A DNA stretch of 64,000 nt, from contig NZ_JFGS01000004.1 of the NCBI RefSeq assembly GCF_000740775.1, positions 62,001 to 126,000 on the forward strand. The letters are read 5' to 3'. The position numbers and the translations under genes were made by a program. Of this stretch, positions 29,886 to 49,162 are shown one piece after another. How positions within the stretch are numbered: position 1 is the stretch's first letter; every line of letters begins with the position of its first letter. This DNA comes from Haematobacter missouriensis (GTDB lineage Bacteria; Pseudomonadota; Alphaproteobacteria; Rhodobacterales; Rhodobacteraceae). A model generated the notes under the pieces. That model was given only the letters and a program-made list of their open reading frames with translations. It ran no database searches and was not told where the DNA came from.

Positions 29886-29935
29886 GGCGGGGTGGTCAGG
29901 TCAGTCAGGATGTTCGGATCGGGCGGGGTGGTCAG
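29886..29935. repeat. 14-bp direct repeat between g15 and the DUF2793 gene
   Basis: GGCGGGGTGGTCAG occurs at 29886-29899 and again at 29922-29935. The second copy overlaps the g15 stop codon, so the repeat straddles the gene junction. Confidence 0.7.
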
Positions 29936-32900
29936 ATTGTCAGGCTGGCAAACGGGCCGGGACCGAAGCGGTCGGACAGTTGCGCGACCTCCAGCCGGAG
30001 CGCGGGGCCGTCGGCCGCGCGCATCTGGGCGCTGTAGCGCCACTCCGGCATGGTGGTCTCCGCCTCCCGCATGACGCCCGAAGCGCCGATGACCCGGAGG
30101 AGATAGGCCTCCCGCGTCTCGCCAAGCGGGATGTCGCGGCTCTCCCAGTCGTCGCCGTCCAGCCGGCTGCGGCGGATCCAACGGAAGGCCAGATCGCCCC
30201 CCTCCGGTCGCATCCGCAGGTGCACGGGCCGGTAGGGGCGCAGACCCACCCCCCGGAAGGCCGCCGTGAGATGGACAAAGGCCGGGTCGTCATAAGCCAG
30301 TCCCGCAGGGCCGATCCGGTAATGCCGCTCCATCCCGCGACGGGCGGGGTCGAGCGCGATCTGCCCCACACGGTGGTCGAGCAGCACGAACCGGCTTCCT
30401 GCAGGCCAGACATGGCCCTCCCGCTCCGTCCCGGCCTGCCCGCGCAGCAGATGGGTCAGCTCGTAGGTGTCGGGCGCGGTCAGCGTCGCGGTGGCGAACT
30501 GGATCACCTCCCATCCATCGGGCGAGCCATCCCCCACCGCAGCCGCATTCGCGCCGCTCAGGACGGAGAGCCGCTCCGCCGATGACAGCGCCCCCGACAT
30601 GCGGACGCGGAGCCGCCCCCTGTCCCACAACCCCGGATGGCGCGCGCCGAGCGGCTCCAGCGTCTCGCCAATCACAGCCGCGCGCTCCACATTGCCGTTC
30701 AGCCGGTAGCCGCTGTCCGTTGGCGCATCCAGCACCGCGATGTCGCCCGGCCAGGGGCTGGCGGTGACGGCAAGATGTGGCGCGTGCGGAACCTCCGCGC
30801 CGGAGAGCAGCGGCAGGTCCAGAAACAGCGCGGCCACGGGTGCGGGCGGTACAAAGGGGCGCGGCTTCGCGGGCGGTTCCTCCACCGGCGGTGCGGAATA
30901 GAGCGCAGGCTCAACCCGCACGGCCTCCACCTCCGCGCCATGTCCCTCCGCCAGCCGGTCGATGCGGTAAAGACCCCGCGCGCCGCCTGCCTCCAGCCGC
31001 ACCACCTCCCCCGCGCCGATCCCGGCGGAGGGCGGCAGGACAAAGCGCGCGGTATCCCGCGCCACCCGCGTCTCCGCCAGCCAGCGTTCGGCAATCGCCA
31101 CCGCCTCTCCCGCCGTGAGGGCGAGCGGGAGTTCGGTTTCCGAGACGGCATCGCCTTCCTCGCCGGGATGGGTGACCTCCACGCTCCGCGCCTCGTAATC
31201 GGCCTCGGCGTCGATATGGCCGATGCGGAGGCGGGGCGGGATTTCGGTTGCGCCCGCGCGCTCCTGCTGCACATCGCCGCCGTCCTGCGCAATGATCGCG
31301 TCGGCATCGATCACCCGCACCGCCTCCGCGCCCCGGCGGCTGAAGACAAGACGCCCGTCCCGCTCCGCCGCATCCACGCCATAGGCCAGCATCAGCGCCT
31401 GCAACGCCCCCCGAGCGGTCTGCTCCGTCAGGGAAAGACCGCGCACCAGCCCGTGCAGACGCGCGACATCCACATCGCCCACCCCCGCCCGCGCACAAAT
31501 CTCCGCCACCACGGCGCCAAGCGGCTGCGCCGCCGTCCGCCCGGTGATCCAGTGGCCGCGGGCGTGGTTTTCACCATCGCTCCAGACATCGGTGGCCTGC
31601 GGAAAGGCGGGCCAAGGCCGCGCATCCCACGCCCAGACATGCGCCCGCGCCATATCCACCATTGGCCCGCCATAATGCGGCGAGACGGGGTTGGCCGCGG
31701 GATCGCTCCAATACCGGGCCAGCGCACGCAGATACTGCATCTGGATCAGGTCGTCCCGCGCCCCGGTCGAGAAATGCGGCAGCGCGGATTCGGAGGACTT
31801 CGGATCAAGGAACTTGTTGGGCTCGTTCGTGCCCTTGTCCACGGCGGCGCAGCCGATCTCGGTGAACCATATGGGCTTCGACATCGGCACCCACGGGCTC
31901 GCCGCCGCCTGCCGGGCACCGCCCACCCGGTCGTGATGCGGATTGCTCCACCAGTTTAGGATGTCCTTGTAGCGCCAGATCCACGGTTCCCCCTCACCAT
32001 CGGTGATCGGGATGCGCCGTTGGGCCGCGCGATCCTCCGGCGTCGCGTAATACCAGTCGTAGCCCTCGCCGCCCGCGACATTCGCGGTCAGGTAGTCAAG
32101 ATCATGGATGGTTCCCGCTGCCGCATCCGCATGGCCGCTGCCGTCGCGCCAGTCGGAGAGGGGCATGTAGTTGTCGATCCCGATGAAGTCGATCGCCGGG
32201 TGGGCCCAGAGCGGGTCGAGGTGGAACCAGCGGTTGCCCTCCGGGTCGGTCGTGCCGAAATACTCGCTCCAATCCGCAGCATAGCCGATCTTCGCGTCCG
32301 GCAGGATCGCGCGGACATCCGCGGCCAGACGGCAAAGCTCCGCCACGGCGGGAAAGCCCCCCGCGTCGCGGATGGCCGTCAGCGCCACCATCTCGGAGCC
32401 GATGCAGAACGCATCCACCCCTCCCGCCAGCGCGCAGAGATGCGCGTAATGCAGGATGAACCGTCGATAGGACCACTCCGGCGGACCGGTATAGACGATG
32501 GTCGTGCCGGTCGCAGTGAAATCCTCCACCCGCGCGGAGCCGAAGAACCGCGCAACCTCCGCCTTGGCAGCAATGGTGCCGAAGGGAGAGCCGACCTCGC
32601 CCGGCGCGCGCGACAGCGTGATCCGCCCCCGCCACGGCAGGGCGGGTTGCTCGCTGCCGCCCCATGGGTCGGGTCGGGCATTGCCCCGAAGCTGCTCCAT
32701 GAGGATGAAGGGGTAGAACACCGCCCGCTTCCCCGCCTGGGCGAGCGCGGTCAGCGCCTCGATCACCGAGCCGTCGGAAGGCGTGCCGCCATAGACGGGG
32801 CGGCCCTCTCGCGTCGCGACCACCTCCGCGTTGCGGCGGGCAAGGCCGCTCACCCGCCAGGGCTGCGCCGCCTCCGCCGTGACCTGCTCCACCTTCGGGC

Positions 32901-33789
32901 TGATCGTGCAGTCGCCGCAGCGCAGGTCCGTCCCGAACCAGGAGACGACCAGCGACACGGAGCCGACCTTCGGCAGCTCCCGCCCCATCTGGTCGAGAGA
33001 GGCCCTGAAATCCGTAACGCCTGCGGGTGAGTTCACGTTCGCGACCCGGTTCCGCCCCAGCCTGTCGGAAAAGACGGCGGGCGTGGTGGCCAGCGCATAT
33101 TCCCCGGTGCCGGGGATGAGCGCCACGGCCCGCGTGACCGCGCCGATGCCGCCCTCCGCCTCCGGTACGCCCTGCGCGGGGCGCATCACCTCGAAGCTGA
33201 ATTGCGGCACCCGGTTACCGAACCGGTCGAGCGCCAGATCCTCGATCACCACATAGGCGGTGCCGCGATAGGCGGGCGCGTTCTCCGCCCCCTCCTCCGC
33301 CACGATGCGCGCGTCGGGAAGCTGCGCGTCATCGCCGCGGTAAAGGCGGAGCGTGACGCTGTTCCGCGCGATCTCCACCCCATCGGCCCAGATCCGGCCG
33401 ATGTCGGTGATGACCCCTTCGCAGAGCGCGATGGCAAGGCTCACGGTATAGGAATACTGCCGCACCTCCGGCCCGGCGCCGCCCTTGCCGCCCCGCGCCG
33501 AACTGGCGTGTTCGGTGAAGGGAGAGGCCCAGATCACCTGCCCGCCGATCCGCATCCGGCCGAAGACCAGCGGCAGGGGCGCGCCCTCGCTCGCCCCGGT
33601 GACCCGGAACCGCTCTATGCGGCCGTGCTCCACCGTCTCTGACCCCGCGCCCAGCAGCCGCTGGTCGATGACGCGTCCCACCGTCGCGCCCAGCGCCCGC
33701 CCGGCGACCGCCCCGGTCAGCCCCATGACCGTGCCACCCATCGCGCCGCCCAGCGATGCGCCGACCGCGCCCAGCATTATGGTTGCCAT
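29932..33789 (-). CDS. GTA gp15, tail tip protein (megatron)
   Basis: Large baseplate protein of the gene transfer agent tail, thought to contact the recipient and help carry DNA through the envelope. The 1285 residues begin with a glycine-rich hydrophobic segment (about residues 5-40). A TIM-barrel-like glycoside hydrolase domain lies around 390-740 (patterns such as FIGIDNYMPLSDWRDG and WFTEIGCAA), and phage tail-tip and fibronectin-like regions follow. Asp and Glu residues in the barrel are present, so sugar-cleaving activity is possible. Its ATG at 33789 overlaps the g14 stop as TGATG. It has the size of other GTA gp15 proteins and appears intact. Confidence 0.95.
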   Translation of the reverse strand: MATIMLGAVGASLGGAMGGTVMGLTGAVAGRALGATVGRVIDQRLLGAGSETVEHGRIERFRVTGASEGAPLPLVFGRMRIGGQVIWASPFTEHASSARGGKGGAGPEVRQYSYTVSLAIALCEGVITDIGRIWADGVEIARNSVTLRLYRGDDAQLPDARIVAEEGAENAPAYRGTAYVVIEDLALDRFGNRVPQFSFEVMRPAQGVPEAEGGIGAVTRAVALIPGTGEYALATTPAVFSDRLGRNRVANVNSPAGVTDFRASLDQMGRELPKVGSVSLVVSWFGTDLRCGDCTISPKVEQVTAEAAQPWRVSGLARRNAEVVATREGRPVYGGTPSDGSVIEALTALAQAGKRAVFYPFILMEQLRGNARPDPWGGSEQPALPWRGRITLSRAPGEVGSPFGTIAAKAEVARFFGSARVEDFTATGTTIVYTGPPEWSYRRFILHYAHLCALAGGVDAFCIGSEMVALTAIRDAGGFPAVAELCRLAADVRAILPDAKIGYAADWSEYFGTTDPEGNRWFHLDPLWAHPAIDFIGIDNYMPLSDWRDGSGHADAAAGTIHDLDYLTANVAGGEGYDWYYATPEDRAAQRRIPITDGEGEPWIWRYKDILNWWSNPHHDRVGGARQAAASPWVPMSKPIWFTEIGCAAVDKGTNEPNKFLDPKSSESALPHFSTGARDDLIQMQYLRALARYWSDPAANPVSPHYGGPMVDMARAHVWAWDARPWPAFPQATDVWSDGENHARGHWITGRTAAQPLGAVVAEICARAGVGDVDVARLHGLVRGLSLTEQTARGALQALMLAYGVDAAERDGRLVFSRRGAEAVRVIDADAIIAQDGGDVQQERAGATEIPPRLRIGHIDAEADYEARSVEVTHPGEEGDAVSETELPLALTAGEAVAIAERWLAETRVARDTARFVLPPSAGIGAGEVVRLEAGGARGLYRIDRLAEGHGAEVEAVRVEPALYSAPPVEEPPAKPRPFVPPAPVAALFLDLPLLSGAEVPHAPHLAVTASPWPGDIAVLDAPTDSGYRLNGNVERAAVIGETLEPLGARHPGLWDRGRLRVRMSGALSSAERLSVLSGANAAAVGDGSPDGWEVIQFATATLTAPDTYELTHLLRGQAGTEREGHVWPAGSRFVLLDHRVGQIALDPARRGMERHYRIGPAGLAYDDPAFVHLTAAFRGVGLRPYRPVHLRMRPEGGDLAFRWIRRSRLDGDDWESRDIPLGETREAYLLRVIGASGVMREAETTMPEWRYSAQMRAADGPALRLEVAQLSDRFGPGPFASLTI

Positions 33790-41747: not shown

Positions 41748-42038
41748 TCATCGCATGGCGGCAGCGACCAGCGCCTCCGCCCCTTTCGCCAGCATGAAGG
41801 CCGCGATCCCGTAGACCCCGACCCACATGCGCTTCTCCAGCCGCTCCAGCGCCGTTTCGATCTGGCCCAGCCGGTATTCGAGCGCGCTCCACCGCTCCTC
41901 CGCGACGCGTTCGTTCGCCTCGATCCTGAGGGCGGCAGCGTCGAAACTGTCGTAGAGGAAGCGCGATCCGCCTTTCGGGCGCGTCACGGCCTCAATCCGC
42001 GAGACGCGGCAGGCCAAGGAGCGCGCGCTTTTCCACAT
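41748..42038 (-). CDS. GTA g3.5 protein (rcc01685-like head formation protein)
   Basis: Small GTA-specific protein of 96 residues. A basic N-terminus is followed by the conserved FLYDSFDAAALR, a coiled-coil helix (about residues 40-70, EERWSALEYRLGQIE) and a C-terminal hydrophobic helix (about 72-94), so it may be membrane-linked. It lies between portal and protease genes, as in RcGTA. The ATG at 42038 makes a 47-nt overlap with g3; a GTG at 41987 just after the portal stop is an alternative that would shorten it to 79 residues. Confidence 0.82.
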   Translation of the reverse strand: MWKSARSLACRVSRIEAVTRPKGGSRFLYDSFDAAALRIEANERVAEERWSALEYRLGQIETALERLEKRMWVGVYGIAAFMLAKGAEALVAAAMR

Positions 42039-43176
42039 CCGTCAGGAAAGCCGCCTCGCCCACGCGCTTCCATTGCTGGTCGCGTTCGTCGGCAAGGGCG
42101 GGCACCTGATCCAGATCGGGGCGCAGCTCCACCGCCTCGCCGGTGAAATCGGACAGCCAGAAGGAGACGGCGGCGGTCACCTTCGTCACCAGCGGCAGCA
42201 CCGTCAGGCGGAAGAAGGCGCGGTTGGCCTCCTGATAATTCGCGTAGGTCGCGTCCCCCCGGATGCCGAGCAGCATGGGCGGCACGCCAAAGGCGGTGGC
42301 GATCTCCCGCGCGGCGGCTTCCTTGGTCTGGTGGAACTCCATGTCGGACGGGCTGAAGCCCATCGGCTTCCAGTCCAGCCCGCCCTCCAGCAGCATGGGC
42401 CGACCGGCATTGCGCGCGCCTTGATGGTGCAACTCCATCTCTGTGACCAGCCGGTCATACTGATCGGGCGTCAGCGCCGCCTGCCCGTCCGCGCCCTTGT
42501 AAACGATGGCGCCGGAGGGACGCGCGGCGTTGTCGAGCAGCGCCTTGGACCAGCGGGAGGCGCTCGAATGCACATCGAGCGCGGTCGCGGCGGCCTGCAG
42601 TGGCGAAAAGCCGTAATGGTCGTCCTGCGGGTGAAACGCGCGGATATGGCAGATGGGCTGCGTCTCGCCGGTCATATCGAAGCGCAGCTTGGCGCCGCCC
42701 GCGGTGTAGTCATAGGCGACGGGCCAGCCGTCCCGCCCCGGCACCAGCACCATGCGGTCGGAGCGGAGCACATGAAGCTCCGCCGGGATGCGCGCGGAAC
42801 CGGAGACTGCCTCCACATAGCCGTCGCCGGTCAGCAGGATCTGACCGAACAGCGCCTCGAACAGCTCCGCCCGCCCCTGTCCACCGTTCGGCCTTCGGAT
42901 GAGGTCGAGCACCGGATGGCGGTCGTAGCGCCGCTCCGCATCCTGGAGGACGAGCGGCAGCGCGGCGGCGGATTCCGCTATGAGCTTGACCGCGCGGAAG
43001 CAGACGGGATTGCCGAGGAACCCCGCGCGGGTCAGCGAGCCGGTATCCCGCGGCGTCCAGGCGACCTGCCCGCCCGCGATGCTGCCCATCGGGCTGCGCG
43101 CCATCACCCGGCCGGCAGCCGAGGCCTTCTGTTCCTGCGGGGCCTCTGCCCCGCGCCGCAGGAAATCGAACATCAT
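41992..43176 (-). CDS. GTA gp3, portal protein
   Basis: Portal ring protein through which DNA enters the GTA head. The 394-residue protein belongs to the HK97-type portal family: VCFRAVKLIAESAAALPL near residue 60, the LTGDGYVE motif, AFHPQDDHYGFSPLQAA and the late FGVPPMLLGI with YANYQEANRAF. An AGGGAG box lies before the ATG at 43176. It is now the first gene of the minus-strand GTA block. Terminase, which normally precedes it, is on the other strand at 47819-49162. The 300 nt upstream hold a 12-nt array and a dispersed repeat but no promoter that I can recognise. Confidence 0.95.
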   Translation of the reverse strand: MMFDFLRRGAEAPQEQKASAAGRVMARSPMGSIAGGQVAWTPRDTGSLTRAGFLGNPVCFRAVKLIAESAAALPLVLQDAERRYDRHPVLDLIRRPNGGQGRAELFEALFGQILLTGDGYVEAVSGSARIPAELHVLRSDRMVLVPGRDGWPVAYDYTAGGAKLRFDMTGETQPICHIRAFHPQDDHYGFSPLQAAATALDVHSSASRWSKALLDNAARPSGAIVYKGADGQAALTPDQYDRLVTEMELHHQGARNAGRPMLLEGGLDWKPMGFSPSDMEFHQTKEAAAREIATAFGVPPMLLGIRGDATYANYQEANRAFFRLTVLPLVTKVTAAVSFWLSDFTGEAVELRPDLDQVPALADERDQQWKRVGEAAFLTDVEKRALLGLPRLAD

Positions 43177-43290
43177 GCCGGCCACTCCCTTCACGAACCG
43201 CGTCTCGTTGAAGGCAAGATGACCGGGAAGTTCTGCGATCCCGCTAACCGACCGCGCGTTGCGCCCGCCGCTGGACGCAACACCCGCGTC

Positions 43291-43476: not shown

Positions 43477-43801
43477 CTAACCCCGAAAGACGAAGACCGC
43501 ACCTACCGCGATCAGCGCAAAGCCAATCGCGCGGTTCCGTTCAGCGTTTCCTTCAGGTGGAGCACCGAAAAGCCGCTGGAGACGAGGAGAGTGATGACTT
43601 CCTGTAGCGCCTTGAGTTGAGCCGCGGAATAGACCTCACGCCCGATCCGGTGGGCCGGCACCGCAAACCAGTATTCGAAGAAGGCGATCCCCCAGGAGGA
43701 CATGACCGCGATCCAGAGCGGCCGCGCGGGACTTTGGAGATGGCCATACCATGCGAAGGTCATGAAGGCGTTCGAGACGGTCAGAACAGGATCGACAGCA
43801 C
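43477..43801 (-). pseudogene. DUF486 (DMT-like) membrane protein gene with two frameshifts
   Basis: The middle of the frame reads as a DUF486 small multidrug-like membrane protein: AFMTFAWYGHL, SWGIAFFEYWFAVPAHRIG and YSAAQLKALQEVITL. Two breaks are visible. At the 5' end, GTG at 43801 begins a plausible VLSILF segment that needs one extra base near 43780 to join the next part. At the 3' end the frame closes early at 43512, but the next frame continues as NRAIGFALIAVGAVFVFRG to a TAG at 43477. A functional protein of about 107 residues is therefore lost unless these are sequencing errors. It lies next to the proposed left end of the inversion. Confidence 0.7.
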
Positions 43802-43949
43802 TTAGGGAAGAGTGGGCATCGGCAGCATCCCCCGCCTGTAGGAAAATCAAACCGATATTTGCGTGCGATACCGCCCTTTTGGAAAAGGTCTTGCAGCGGC
43901 CCAGATGCTCAAGGGGGAATGCCGACAGGCAGAATGCGGCCAGGCAAGT

Positions 43950-43993: not shown

Positions 43994-45484
43994 TCAGTTC
44001 CCGCCGCGCCCAGTCAGACCCGGAATACCCGGCGGTTCCGTGGATCCGCCGAGGCCCGGAATACCGCCGTCTCCCCCAAGGCCAGGGATGCCACCGCCGC
44101 CAAGACCCTCGCCGGTGGGAAGCTCGATGCGGATCGTATCCAGATCGACATTGTTCTGGCCGGGCAGCAGACCCGTGACCAGTTCAGGCCAGAAGATCAC
44201 GATGCCCACCAGCAGAAGCTGCATGACGAGCCACGGGATCGCACCCATGTAGATCTCCGTCGTCTTGACGGTCCGGGGCGCGACGGAGCGCAGGTAAAAC
44301 AGCGCAAATCCGAAGGGCGGGTGCATGAAGGAAGTCTGCAGGTTGATGCAGAGCAGCACGCCGAACCACACGAGGTCGATCCCCAGCGAATGGGCCACCG
44401 GGGCGAGCATCGGCACCACGATGAAGGCGATCTCGAAGAAGTCGAGGAAGAAGGCCAGGAAGAAGATGAATACGTTGACGAAGAGCAGGAAGCCGATCGG
44501 CCCGCCCGGCAGCGAGGTCAGCAGATGCTCGATCCACAGAGCACCGTCCATCCCCTGGAAGACCAGCGTGAACACGGTCGCGCCGATGAGGATGAACACC
44601 ACCATCGAGGTGAGTTGCGCCGTGGCGCCGATGGCCTGACGCAGCAGGTTCCATGTCAGCCGCCGATGGGCGGCGGCAAGGATCAGCCCTCCGACAACCC
44701 CGAGCGCCCCGGCCTCCGTCGGCGTGGCAAGGCCGAGGAAGATGGTGCCGAGCACGAGGAAGATCAGCACGATGGAGGGAACGATGCCCTTGACCACCTT
44801 CCAGACCAGCGCGAGGTCCAGATCGCCGCGCACTTCCTTCGGCAGGGGCGGCACCCAGTGCGGGCGGAAGATGGCGACGAGGCCGATGAAGCACAGGAAG
44901 ATGAACACCTGCACCGCCGCCGGACCCATCGCCCCGATGTAGAGATCGCCCACCGATTTTCCGAGCTGGTCAGCCAGCACGACCAGCACGAGCGAGGGCG
45001 GGATGAGCTGCGCCAGCGTCCCCGATGCCGCGATCACCCCCGTGGCGAGCCGCGGGTTGTAGCCGTAGCGCAGCATCACGGGGAGTGAGATCAGGCCCAT
45101 GGTGATGACCGAGGCCGCCACCGTGCCGGTGATGGCGGCGAGCACCGCGCCCACCAGCACCACCGCCACGGCGAGGCCGCCCGGCACGCCGCCAAAGAGC
45201 TTGCCCGTCCCCTCCAGCAGATCCTCCGCCAAGCCGCAGCGTTCGAGGATCGCGCCCATCAGGGTGAAGAACGGGATCGCCAGCAGGAGGTCATTGGAGA
45301 CGATGCCGAAGAAACGATAGGGCAGCGCCGACAGGAAGGCCGGGTCGAAGTGACCCGTCAGAATGCCGAGCGCGCCGAAGAACAGCCCGGCTGCGCCGAG
45401 CGAGAAAGCCACCGGAAACCCGTAGAGCATGAAGATGATCATGCACAGGAACATCAGCGGCGGCATGGGGCCATAGTGAAACAT
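43994..45484 (-). CDS. dctM: TRAP transporter large permease (DctM type) with a GIPGL-rich tail
   Basis: Inner-membrane ion-coupled permease of a TRAP transporter, acting with the small permease and binding protein upstream. The 496-residue protein has about 12 hydrophobic segments and the DctM patterns FLAIPFFTLMGAIL-like near residue 85 and GTVAASVITMGLISLPVMLRYGY. The last 50 residues are extra: a Gly/Pro-rich hydrophilic tail with repeated GIPGL units after a short acidic region. This tail is not known in typical DctM proteins of about 430 residues. The gene ends 11 nt before a strong terminator. Confidence 0.93.
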   Translation of the reverse strand: MFHYGPMPPLMFLCMIIFMLYGFPVAFSLGAAGLFFGALGILTGHFDPAFLSALPYRFFGIVSNDLLLAIPFFTLMGAILERCGLAEDLLEGTGKLFGGVPGGLAVAVVLVGAVLAAITGTVAASVITMGLISLPVMLRYGYNPRLATGVIAASGTLAQLIPPSLVLVVLADQLGKSVGDLYIGAMGPAAVQVFIFLCFIGLVAIFRPHWVPPLPKEVRGDLDLALVWKVVKGIVPSIVLIFLVLGTIFLGLATPTEAGALGVVGGLILAAAHRRLTWNLLRQAIGATAQLTSMVVFILIGATVFTLVFQGMDGALWIEHLLTSLPGGPIGFLLFVNVFIFFLAFFLDFFEIAFIVVPMLAPVAHSLGIDLVWFGVLLCINLQTSFMHPPFGFALFYLRSVAPRTVKTTEIYMGAIPWLVMQLLLVGIVIFWPELVTGLLPGQNNVDLDTIRIELPTGEGLGGGGIPGLGGDGGIPGLGGSTEPPGIPGLTGRGGN

Positions 45485-45502
45485 GCGTCTGTCCTGTCGG
45501 TC

Positions 45503-46042
45503 CTACTGGAGAGGCTTTTCGTATTTGGTCTCCAGGGTGATCATCCCCCGGAGCGCCGCGATGCGCTTGATGAGTTCAGAGATGCCCTGAAGCGCCAGCA
45601 AAGCGAACCCGGCCGTCAGCATGAGCTTCACCGGCCAGCGGATCAGGCCTCCCGCGTTCTGCGACACCTCTCCCTGCTGCCACGACAGCACGAAGACCGG
45701 CCAGTTGAGCCAGGCGCAGTAGATGGAGAACGGCAGCAGGAACACGATGATCCCGAACAGATCGACCCAGAGCCGCGCCCTCTCGGAAATCGCGCCGTAG
45801 ATCAGGTCCACCCGGACATGTTCATTCTTCTTCAGCGTATAGGACGCGCCCATCAGGACGATGAAAGCGAACATGTACCACTGGATTTCGAGCCAGCCGT
45901 TCGAGCTGATATGGAATGTGTAGCGGATGAGCGCGTTGAACGCGCTGACAAGGGCGCAGAGAAGGACGAGATACTCGCCGATCCTGCCAAAGAACTCGTT
46001 GATGCGGTCAATGAGACCGCTCAGGGCGAGCAGAGCTTTCAC
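45503..46042 (-). CDS. dctQ: TRAP transporter small permease (DctQ type)
   Basis: Four-helix inner membrane subunit that joins the large permease. The 179-residue protein shows the DctQ pattern with FNALIRYTFHISSNGWLE and EIQWYMFAFIVLMGASYTLKKNEHVRVD. I chose the GTG at 46042 because AGGAGG lies 5 nt before it; the longer in-frame start at 46105 would read through a hairpin. The gene lies between dctP and dctM on the same strand, 18 nt before dctM. Confidence 0.92.
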   Translation of the reverse strand: MKALLALSGLIDRINEFFGRIGEYLVLLCALVSAFNALIRYTFHISSNGWLEIQWYMFAFIVLMGASYTLKKNEHVRVDLIYGAISERARLWVDLFGIIVFLLPFSIYCAWLNWPVFVLSWQQGEVSQNAGGLIRWPVKLMLTAGFALLALQGISELIKRIAALRGMITLETKYEKPLQ

Positions 46043-46083
46043 TGGAACCTCCTGACCCGCGCGCACCGGGCCGCAAAGCAAAC

Positions 46084-46103
46084 GGCCGGGACTGTGCCCG
46101 GCC
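46084..46103 (-). promoter_or_regulatory. Intercistronic hairpin between dctP and dctQ
   Basis: A perfect 7-bp stem GGCCGGG/CCCGGCC with a 6-nt loop lies 15 nt after the dctP stop. It could lower expression of the permeases relative to the abundant binding protein, a common TRAP operon pattern. No T-run follows. Confidence 0.6.
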
Positions 46104-46118
46104 ATTCCATGTCGCCTG

Positions 46119-47222
<1,104 letters not shown>

Positions 47223-47390
47223 TTATCCTCCCTTGATCCCGGCCCTCTTCTCCCCGGTCCGGGTAGCGAACAAAAGCACGTGAGGCGGTTGTCTCGCAAG
47301 CGTTTCGCATTATGGCCCCGTCAGAATATGCACCCCTGCAACGGTTGCCGTTGCGTCAATGCGTTGGGCGCATCGCCGCAGCGCACGGAC

Positions 47391-47456
47391 GATTAATGAA
47401 ATATTGTTTATTTACAACACATTAATCTTGACTTTTCGCCCGTTGCAAGGCATGGT
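47391..47456 (+). promoter_or_regulatory. Inverted repeat and possible promoter before GTA g1
   Basis: GATTAATG at 47391-47398 and CATTAATC at 47420-47427 form a perfect 8-bp inverted repeat with a 21-nt AT-rich spacer that itself contains TTGT-n6-ACAA. Directly after it, TTGACT at 47428-47433 is followed 17 nt later by CATGGT, a possible promoter toward g1. This is the only AT-rich stretch near g1 and the likely control region for g1-g2, and perhaps for divergent dctP. The binding factor is unknown. Confidence 0.5.
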
Positions 47457-47553
47457 CGCGGACATGCTGGAGAATTGTGCAGGCGGCCGGGGCGATCCGA
47501 GCCGCTTTTTCAATTCGCTCGGGCGGGGGCTTGAGGGGCACAGGGCGCAGCAT

Positions 47554-47868
47554 ATGCCAGACCTGACGACACACGAAACGCCACCGAGGGATGTGCTCTC
47601 GGAGGTGATGGAACTCTACGATACGGCAATCGAAGTCTTCACCGAAACCATGCGCGAAGCGCGGGAGGACGGGCGCGTGAAGGAGGCGAACTCCTACGTC
47701 CGCGAACTCGGCAAGATCGTTCTCGCAGTCATCACGGAAAGGGAAAAGATTGACAAACTTCGCAGGCAGGAAACCGGCGGGACCGGAGGAGGCGCACTCG
47801 ACCTCGATGCGGCACGGGATGAGATCGGCCGCAGGCTGGCTCGCCTCCGCGACGCCGGAGACGCTTGA
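47554..47868 (+). CDS. GTA gp1, small terminase subunit-like protein
   Basis: First gene of the usual GTA cluster, shown in R. capsulatus to act as a small terminase. The 104-residue product is helical and charged, with the conserved RDVLSEVMELYDTAIEVFTE and NSYVRELGKIVLAVITEREKI, and an acidic or glycine-rich linker before the last helix. The ATG at 47554 begins the conserved sequence; the frame is open further upstream into the AT-rich control region. The ribosome binding site is weak. It overlaps g2 by 50 nt. It lies on the plus strand, opposite to g3-g15. Confidence 0.88.
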   Translation: MPDLTTHETPPRDVLSEVMELYDTAIEVFTETMREAREDGRVKEANSYVRELGKIVLAVITEREKIDKLRRQETGGTGGGALDLDAARDEIGRRLARLRDAGDA

Positions 47869-49162
47869 GTCCTTCATGGAGGGGCTTTCGCCCAATGCGC
47901 TCGCGGCTCTGCCGTGGCTTTTCGAGATCTGGGCGCTGCCGCATCAGCTTCCGCCGGAGGGGGACTGGAAGACCTGGGTCATCATGGGAGGGCGCGGGGC
48001 GGGCAAGACCCGCGCCGGCGCGGAATGGATCAGGTCGGAGGTGGAGGGGGCGCGCCCCCTCCTTCCCGGCCGGTCGCGGCGGGTTGCGCTGGTCGGAGAG
48101 ACGCTCGAACAGGTTCGCGAGGTGATGGTGTTCGGCGAAAGCGGTATCCTCGCCTGCTCTCCCCCCGACCGGATGCCGGTCTGGGAAGCGACGCGGCGGC
48201 GGCTCGTCTGGCCCAACGGGGCCGTGGCACAGATCTTCTCCGCCCACGACCCGGAAAGCCTGCGAGGCCCCCAGTTCGATTGCGCCTGGGTCGATGAGCT
48301 CGCGAAGTGGAAGAAGGCCTCCGACACCTGGGACATGCTCCAGTTCGGCCTCCGGCTTGGCGATCAGCCGCGGCAGGTCGTCACCACCACACCCCGCAAC
48401 GTGGGCGTGCTGCGCGACATCCTGCGTAACGCATCCACCACCGTCACACATGCGCCGACGGAGGCCAATCGCGCGCATCTGGCGGCGTCGTTCCTCAGCG
48501 AAGTCCGCGCGCGCTATGCCGGTACGCGCCTCGGACGGCAGGAGCTGGACGGCCTCCTTGTCGATGAAGCGGAAGGCGCACTCTGGACGGCGGTCCTGCT
48601 GGACCGCGCGCGGCTGCGGGAGCTTCCCCCCCTCACCCGCGTCGTGGTGGCCGTCGATCCGCCGGTGACGGGCCACGGCGGCTCGGACGACTGCGGCATC
48701 GTGGTGGCCGGGGTGGTCGCCGAAGGTCCGCCGCAGGACTGGCGGGCGGTGGTGATAGAGGACGCCTCCGTCTCCGCCGCCTCCCCCGACCGGTGGGCGC
48801 GGGCCGCACTCGCGGCGGCAGAGCGGCACGGCGCGGAACGGGTGGTGGCGGAAGTCAATCAAGGCGGCGATCTGGTCGAGAGCCTGCTGCGCTCCATCGA
48901 CCCGCTGGTGCCGTTCCGCGCCGTCCGCGCCTCCCGCGGCAAGGCCGCCCGGGCCGAGCCGGTGGCCGCGCTCTACGAGCAGGGCCGCGTGCGCCACATG
49001 CCGGGGCTCGACCGGCTGGAGGACCAGATGTGCCGCATGACCGCCCAAGGCTATGAGGGGCGCGGCAGCCCAGACCGGCTTGACGCGCTCGTATGGGCAC
49101 TGACGGAGTTGATGATCGTTCCGGCACAGGGTTGGCGGAAGCCGGGCATCCGGCTTCTGTGA
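47819..49162 (+). CDS. GTA gp2, large terminase subunit
   Basis: ATP-driven DNA packaging motor and nuclease of the GTA. The 447-residue protein has Walker A GGRGAGKT at 57-64, Walker B ending in Asp159-Glu160 (CAWVDE), and the C-terminal RNase H-like nuclease with Asp280 in VVVAVDPP, the SDDCG motif and a final Asp in PDRLDALVWAL. The start is uncertain: ATGs at 47804 and 47819 and a TTG at 47750 are in frame; 47819 fits the family best. In other Rhodobacterales it directly precedes the portal gene on the same strand. Here the portal is about 6 kb away on the other strand. Confidence 0.95.
   Translation: MRSAAGWLASATPETLESFMEGLSPNALAALPWLFEIWALPHQLPPEGDWKTWVIMGGRGAGKTRAGAEWIRSEVEGARPLLPGRSRRVALVGETLEQVREVMVFGESGILACSPPDRMPVWEATRRRLVWPNGAVAQIFSAHDPESLRGPQFDCAWVDELAKWKKASDTWDMLQFGLRLGDQPRQVVTTTPRNVGVLRDILRNASTTVTHAPTEANRAHLAASFLSEVRARYAGTRLGRQELDGLLVDEAEGALWTAVLLDRARLRELPPLTRVVVAVDPPVTGHGGSDDCGIVVAGVVAEGPPQDWRAVVIEDASVSAASPDRWARAALAAAERHGAERVVAEVNQGGDLVESLLRSIDPLVPFRAVRASRGKAARAEPVAALYEQGRVRHMPGLDRLEDQMCRMTAQGYEGRGSPDRLDALVWALTELMIVPAQGWRKPGIRLL

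Follow-up and report, generated by a model that had tools for sequence, protein, structure and literature searches.

The AT-rich sequence in front of the terminase genes g1 and g2 in the 64-kb window (the whole stretch of Haematobacter DNA that was analyzed) is the predicted g1 promoter of a gene transfer agent (GTA) of the RcGTA type, a domesticated phage. A TTGACT hexamer, a poor -10 element 17 nt further on, a leader hairpin with a tail of five T's, and g1 itself follow one another here as a module with homologues in R. capsulatus and many further Rhodobacteraceae. The promoter is probably driven by GafA with the assistance of CtrA and/or IHF, and GafA probably overrides a terminator in the leader; the binding of these factors and the antitermination are carried over from what is reported in R. 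capsulatus and Caulobacter. A short inverted repeat in the same sequence, which the first-pass annotation had connected with nutrient control of DNA packaging, is ordinary as a finding. In contrast, a conserved GTA promoter with a leader terminator, accompanied by CtrA-type boxes in about half of its members and found here in a genus whose GTA cluster is split, merits a test at the bench.

A conserved promoter and leader before g1

47427-47521, + strand: whole promoter-leader module, matched by covariance model R1 (62 bits, E 4.6e-14)
47428-47433, + strand: -35 element TTGACT, unchanged in both congeners and aligned to R1
47451-47456, + strand: -10 position CATGGT, a poor match, 17 nt after the -35 and unchanged in both congeners
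47457-47553, + strand: untranslated g1 leader, in which the congeners differ at 3 and 5 of 97 positions
47482-47510, + strand: bulged hairpin of the intrinsic-terminator type with a T5 tail (dG -16.2 kcal/mol, 10 pairs)
47554-47868, + strand: g1, small terminase subunit, 104 aa, assigned from its position ahead of g2 and its homology to GTA g1 loci
47750-49162, + strand: g2, large terminase subunit, an open frame with Terminase_6N and Terminase_6C

The module was recognized with covariance model R1, for which 51 promoters were taken from other Rhodobacteraceae and none from this genus. The -35 is present in the rows of R1 by construction, since they were anchored on TTGAC or TTGA. The match at 47427-47521 is the only strong one in the genome and lies directly before g1 and g2, bearing out the earlier view that the terminase genes are controlled from here. 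Over 61 genomes, R1 matched 23 with one match each under the stricter filters, and all 23 matches are upstream of g2 on the same strand; the distance from the end of the module to residue 1 of g2 is 229-317 bp in 22 of them and 680 bp in one. The three genomes of the genus rank 16th-18th among the 23, with the window 16th. Within the family, 32 of 37 genomes have g2 at E 1e-60, and 23 of those 32 have the module. When the genus is set apart, 14 of the 34 family genomes give no module match under the stricter filters, and 9 of the 14 have g2. Outside the family, R1 matched none of 24 genomes, and g2 was matched in 12 of them. Some of these genomes are the same organisms as the relatives' loci, so the genome matches are in part not independent of the model.

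The search for relatives kept the best 80 of 585. Counts of leaders and promoters are based on 106 g2 loci, 4 of which were set aside (the window's own, later restored, and three repeats of congener loci). A promoter anchor was found in 90 of the 102 loci left. It was missing in 12 (L004, L017, L018, L022, L023, L058, L068, L081, L086, L097, L099, and L103), and some of these are misses of the method, since the genome of L004 (G030) has a module match. Removal of duplicates and addition of the window gave 88 leaders, including those of three genus genomes, and 87 promoters once the misplaced L069 was taken out. A separate scan with a stricter anchor used 74 of the 102 loci, or 72 promoters after duplicates were removed, with no member of the genus.

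In most relatives, the layout consists of TTGAC, a spacer containing GCGNNCGG, a TAGA- or TATA-like -10 (mostly TAGANN or TATANN), a GCTRG word, a G+C-rich hairpin, and a T tract. The window has the -35 and the 17-nt spacing of its relatives, whereas its CATGGT is a poor match to their -10. The annotation had proposed a possible TTGACT promoter toward g1. The hexamer and its spacing agree with those of relatives and are matched by R1; a simple scan of the region upstream of g1 called neither a sigma-70 promoter nor a terminator. The g1 start site would lie at about 47463. The g1 frame most likely starts at the ATG at 47554, since a one-base difference in length upstream in G001, one of the two congeners (G001 and G002), breaks the longer frame; a coding leader was rejected for the same reason. 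The g1 product has no match in Pfam or NCBIfam.

The coordinates of the module in R. capsulatus (L080) place it relative to published work. In that species, the -35 begins at -129, the -10 at -106, and the hairpin at -76 relative to g1, compared to -126, -103, and -72 in the window, and in both g1 begins 40-50 nt beyond the T tract. The probe bound by GafA lies 76-125 bp upstream of R. capsulatus g1 and contains the -10 and the start site seen by RNA-seq (Fogg 2019, PMC6363796). The module is thus the mapped RcGTA promoter, and the hairpin begins where the GafA-bound piece ends.

A second symmetrical sequence was noticed by eye in the same intergenic region.

47337-47353, no strand: 17-bp palindrome GCAACGG-TTG-CCGTTGC, with two differences per 20 bp in each congener

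It lies about 90 bp before the -35, in a position that resembles that of the far-upstream GafY element of Caulobacter, and is a candidate either for a far-upstream GTA site or for an operator of dctP.

Candidate factor sites beside the -35

47411-47425, no strand: candidate CtrA-type box TTTA-N7-TTAA, one mismatch, overlapping the right arm of the inverted repeat (47420-47427)

The general CtrA consensus is TTAA-N7-TTAA. Both congeners have it exactly at -17, where the window has one mismatch. Among the 87 promoters, this genus included, an exact box occurs in 16 (0.2 expected) and a box with at most one mismatch in 42 (3.6 expected); at the latter tolerance, spacings of 5, 6, 8, and 9 give 8, 9, 7, and 3. 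Within 150 bp of the -35 in the 72-promoter scan, the exact box was found 13 times (0.1 expected), compared to 0-2 for other spacings, and the box with up to one mismatch 35 times (2.6 expected), compared to 3-16 for other spacings. The highest rival was a spacing of 13, with 16 of 72 promoters at one mismatch (2.7 expected). The starts of the boxes cluster at -56, near -45, at -26, and, in this genus, at -17, which looks like helical phasing.

The consensus for IHF is WATCARNNNNTTR, and in the window its best fits on either strand have two mismatches (at -74, -31, -16, and -13). Across the family, 44 of 87 promoters carry the IHF-type word YAANNNNYTGATW when up to one mismatch is allowed (4.8 expected) and 12 carry it exactly (0.1 expected), and 28 of its 48 places are 24-29 nt before the -35; in the other orientation, it is found in 23 of 87 (4.3 expected). 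Both the CtrA-type and the IHF-type words are present in 27 of 87 promoters, and their counts are not independent because the words overlap in many of them. The abundance of the IHF-type word speaks for a different reading, possible but on the whole doubtful, in which the AT-rich block is not a CtrA box but an IHF site or a plain UP-type element, acting through DNA bending or contact with the alpha subunit of the polymerase. In the congeners, the element can likewise be read as an IHF site, with one mismatch on the forward strand, and IHF is required at the GTA promoter of Caulobacter (PMC11150451). Against this reading, the window itself comes within one mismatch of the CtrA-type box and only within two of the IHF consensus, and the CtrA-type box is exact in both congeners.

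The g1 promoter of R. capsulatus has neither a CtrA-type nor an IHF-type word at up to one mismatch. CtrA showed no binding to the GTA promoter of that species (PMC6363796), in agreement with the missing box. The spacing-specific boxes seen elsewhere suggest that the R. capsulatus result may be a special case. In D. shibae, CtrA sites have been described at gafA and two other GTA-associated genes, together with a LexA site at the cluster (Koppenhofer 2019, PMC6473078).

A predicted terminator in the leader

The leader hairpin proper occupies 47482-47505 and the T tail 47506-47510, both inside the R1 match. Its form is that of an intrinsic terminator, a G+C-rich hairpin with a T tract immediately after it, and the simple scan probably missed it because of the bulge. 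A search of Rfam returned one weak match (traJ_5, 23.9 bits with a cut-off of 50), which is taken as chance. When a hairpin was required to have a dG of -8 or lower and at least 5 T's in eight bases, 85 of 88 leaders had one, that of R. capsulatus among them, compared to 32 of 264 shuffled leaders; the leaders that failed were L011, L031, and the misplaced L069.

The leader stems of relatives also carry compensatory base changes (RNAalifold was run as well). Over 70 leaders, the eight-pair stem is 91.9% paired, compared to 82.6% in shuffles and 28-69% when the stem is slid along the alignment, a percentage that leans upward because the leaders were chosen for having the hairpin. This alignment, A5, holds 68 loci that pass the hairpin test, the window, and L002 (whose row is about 16 nt off), so that A5, like R1, was built from preselected leaders; a further alignment, A6, holds 51 of the 68, picked by hand. 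Cells with a double change number 43, compared to 9.0 in shuffles and 7-19 when slid, and none of 500 shuffles reached as many. That 6 of the 8 pairs show at least one double change is unremarkable, since 11 of 500 shuffles reach this number and slid stems give 3-7.

The hairpin could instead be an element for RNA stability or control of translation, or what is left of a phage terminator with no use today. In favor of such an alternative, transcription runs beyond the hairpin when the cluster is on, and the role of the hairpin as a terminator is read from its sequence. The alternative is nevertheless an unlikely one, given that the stem, the T tail, and the place of the hairpin are kept in nearly all of the leaders, that double changes abound in the stem, and that the hairpin lies downstream of the promoter elements with the T tail of an intrinsic terminator.

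A GTA cluster split by a transporter operon

46119-47219, - strand: dctP, TRAP solute-binding protein, divergent from g1; its structure matches are 2hzk and 7ug8
43994-46105, - strand: dctQ and dctM, TRAP permease subunits
41992-43194, - strand: g3, portal, the first gene of the separated g3-g15 block; its ATG is probably at 43176

The divergent layout described by the annotation is as it had said, with g1 and g2 on the + strand, dctPQM on the - strand, and the HK97-type portal and capsid genes beyond dctPQM, also on the - strand. A 1285-aa frame at 29932-33789 is taken as g15 from its size and place only. The transporter was likewise rightly called one for 2-oxo acids: the whole of DctP aligns with 2hzk (E 2e-159), the 2-oxo acid binder TakP of R. 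sphaeroides, and DctP also matches 7ug8, which is named as ketoacid-binding.

The three genus genomes examined all carry g1, and all have the same gene order, namely g2-g1, dctPQM, and then g3, g5, and the g15 frame. A TRAP operon between g1-g2 and g3-g15 is common to 3 of 3 genomes in the genus. It was seen at none of 80 other loci (0 of 80), where the stretch examined, up to 5 kb on each side, contained no dctP and no dctM. This makes the region shared by dctP and g1 specific to the genus and not a conserved coupling. In 74 of the 80 loci, g3 follows g2 on the same strand; the remaining 6 have no g3 in the stretch examined, and four of those stretches end just past g2. A run of g1-g15 in one direction behind the promoter is not seen in this genus, where g3, g5, and the g15 frame are on the other strand, and such a run characterizes clusters rather than promoters. 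Should an inversion of dctM to g2 have produced the present order, the head-to-head pair of dctP and g1 would be older than the inversion.

The genes g3-g15 now stand behind dctPQM on the same strand. A second promoter-leader module was not found before g3, the next R1 match in the genome having 17.6 bits (E 0.3), and the 126 bp before g3 match nothing but themselves in the genome. Over roughly the last 120 bp before g3, the three genus genomes are nearly identical; further upstream, G002 diverges. By its split, the cluster offers a natural experiment on the need for one common switch for packaging and capsid genes.

The poor -10, the cluster split by TRAP genes, and the divergent box might also mean that the GTA of this genus is decaying and that its promoter is a relic. 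This is improbable. Purifying selection acts on g1, g2, g3, and the frame taken as g15 (dN/dS 0.04-0.13); for example, g1 is 96-98% identical in the congeners with a dN/dS of about 0.12, and the values for g2 are 0.04-0.05. The gene g5 was left out of this evidence (dN/dS 0.00-0.31, doubtful start included). In addition, the split is common to the whole set of genus genomes, and all three have a GafA-family gene together with its promoter box.

Several rearrangements were observed around these genes. Between dctM and g3 (window 43500-43900, - strand) there is a remnant of a gene for a small membrane protein, DMT-like by eye, which is open in G001 and interrupted in the window. In G002 (L027/L029), dctQ and dctM are only 82-84% identical to those of the window, compared to 95-98% for dctP, g2, and g3, and the stretch from dctQ-dctM to g3 is a patch of different descent adjoining the GTA genes. 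In L015 and L024, part of the g15 frame has as its immediate neighbor a truncated g2 or a g2 fragment, with the intervening GTA genes lost; the genome of L015 still has a strong match to the promoter module.

The inverted repeat

47391-47398, no strand: left arm GATTAATG, in which the congeners differ at 1 and 3 of 8 positions
47420-47427, no strand: right arm CATTAATC, whose TTAA forms the second half-site of the candidate CtrA box

The perfect 8-bp inverted repeat reported by the annotation is present, as is its AT-rich character. The arms GATTAATG and CATTAATC are perfect over 8 bp and separated by a 21-nt spacer, with TTGACT directly after them, and 47391-47427 has a G+C content of 19%, the lowest of the window at that length. 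There are nine such AT-rich 37-mers in the window, and all of them start at 47389-47400, in a single cluster. Perfect 8-bp repeats with a spacer of up to 25 have 53 centers across the window, and only the pair at 47391/47420 has at least 6 A/T per arm. When the 334-bp intergenic region was shuffled, 300 of 2000 shuffles yielded at least one comparable AT-armed repeat, and when the AT-rich 60 bp alone were shuffled, 43 of 2000 did so. The repeat is thus mildly unusual at best, and these counts point to a symmetry that is probably due to chance.

The arms read GTTTAATG/CATTAATC in G001 and GTGTAAGG/CATTAAAC in G002, with 0 and 1 of 8 positions changed in the right arm, so the position of the repeat is kept and its symmetry is not kept in either congener. 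A comparison of the region before g1 in relatives had been put forward as a check, and in it the AT-rich block proved to be conserved together with the -35 and the leader, whereas the inverted repeat as such fails. The repeat was accordingly rejected as an operator on its conservation in congeners, together with its chance level across the whole intergenic region. A joint operator for dctP and g1, bound by a local nutrient-responsive regulator, would suit the divergent arrangement with a TakP-like TRAP protein and a perfect repeat that is rare in shuffles of the AT-rich core, but it is very improbable in view of the shuffles of the whole intergenic region, the arms not kept in congeners, the lack of TRAP neighbors in the stretches examined at all 80 other loci, and the lack of any regulator among the ten neighboring frames scanned. 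Nutrient control of packaging through this repeat is not supported.

GafA and a possible phage-like switch

The genome encodes a GafA-family protein with a PF20057 match of 213 bits, PF20057 presumably being the C-terminal domain of GafA. This assignment is supported by the CtrA-type box upstream of the gene, TTAAC-N6-GTAAT; the CtrA site described at gafA is TTAAC-N6-GTAAC (PMC6363796). An antitermination scheme of the Q/GafZ type would consist of a loading site within the promoter, a terminator downstream, and a cognate protein, and of these parts a predicted terminator and a PF20057 protein are present. GafZ, a homologue of the C-terminus of GafA, is an antiterminator in Caulobacter, and the authors of that work suggested that GafA might have an unrecognized antitermination activity (PMC11150451). 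The terminator-type hairpin shared by the g1 leaders provides a concrete target for this suggested activity. Other readings of GafA are that it is a possible alternative sigma factor (PMC6363796) or that it recruits the polymerase through omega.

In the mechanism proposed here, CtrA and/or IHF would bind the AT-rich block beside the -35 and help RNA polymerase. GafA would load at the -10 and start region, where its C-terminal part binds in R. capsulatus, and activate transcription. It would also let the polymerase pass the leader terminator, which means that cells without GafA would make only a short leader RNA. The rearrangement in this genus would have left g1 and g2 alone behind the switch, with g3-g15 in need of another promoter or of read-through.

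More tentatively, it is conceivable that throughout the family the GTA cluster is run in the manner of a phage late operon. In about half of the genomes, the promoter would be marked directly by CtrA (with IHF), the polymerase would halt about 50 nt on at the leader terminator, and GafA would act as the antiterminator. The inversion in this genus would then have separated packaging (g1-g2) from particle building (g3-g15), making two switches of one.

Likeness to known systems

At the late promoter pR' of phage lambda, the leader RNA ends at the promoter-proximal terminator tR', and the antiterminator Q loads inside the promoter. The g1 module would resemble it in having a promoter, a short leader RNA with a terminator, and an antiterminator loaded at the promoter, a likeness that is known here from the DNA only, and its leader is much shorter than that of pR'. 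The authors of the work on GafZ state that it resembles neither Q nor AlpA in sequence or structure (PMC11150451).

The closest system is the RcGTA g1 promoter of R. capsulatus (PMC6363796, PMC9638019), which has the same place, -35, spacing, and leader hairpin; GafA acts there, and a GafA-family protein is encoded here. It differs in having no TTAA-N7-TTAA box and no CtrA binding, whereas a candidate box is present in the window. The -10 here is poorer than that of RcGTA, and the promoter serves only g1 and g2. The CtrA boxes of alphaproteobacteria, such as that of the gafA promoter (PMC6363796), have the same TTAA-N7-TTAA spacing near the -35, with the window one mismatch away. In the PgtaT promoter of Caulobacter crescentus (Tran and Le 2024, PMC11150451), the activator is far upstream, IHF is in between, and the site of the antiterminator lies between the -35 and the -10. 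GafY and GafZ are homologous to the halves of GafA, and the terminator tested in Caulobacter was a set of 150-bp repeats after the first gene, in contrast to the short leader hairpin here (PMC11150451).

No description of a leader terminator or of CtrA-type boxes at g1 promoters was found among the papers listed from the open GTA literature, supplements aside, and the same holds for reports of CtrA binding at any g1 promoter. The word "terminator" is absent from the main texts of PMC6363796 and PMC9638019, refers to a tail protein in PMC11409702 and PMC7947584, and belongs to a cited title in PMC9690577. The available text of PMC8224337, PMC3423380, and PMC9632790 contains nothing on a leader terminator, nor was one met in the corresponding parts of PMC6854486, PMC4046655, PMC11655674, PMC13236601, and PMC9552610. 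A motif for GafYZ could not be predicted, according to PMC9632790.

A recurrent word near GafA and g1 promoters

The word GTGTTGC is, from its distribution, a candidate site for the N-domain of GafA. Among 24 GafA-family loci, 14 have it at a distance of 82-87 nt upstream of the best CtrA-type box, three of these loci being from this genus, and five more have it elsewhere within 170 nt (L127, L132, L133, L134, and L140); it is absent from the GafA-family loci L135, L137, L139, L141, and L142. On either strand, TGTTGC[GA] precedes 24 of 87 g1 promoters, compared to 87 of 2000 random 160-mers. GTGTTGC is also found 108 bp before g3 in all three genus genomes, with the longer GTGTTGCG in two of the three, whereas upstream of other g3 genes GTGTTGC occurs in 2 of 73 on the forward strand and 1 of 73 on the reverse, and GTGTTGCG in 0 of 73. 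The stretch before g3 resembles the g2-g3 junction of L084 and L079, so the word there may be a leftover, and GTGTTGCG was set aside as a GafA N-domain site and kept only as a lead. The places concerned are 657-665 in L110, the GafA-family loci L120-L142, the sequences upstream of g1, and 43276-43284 (- strand) in the window. It is enriched before g1 promoters in some lineages, such as Paracoccus.
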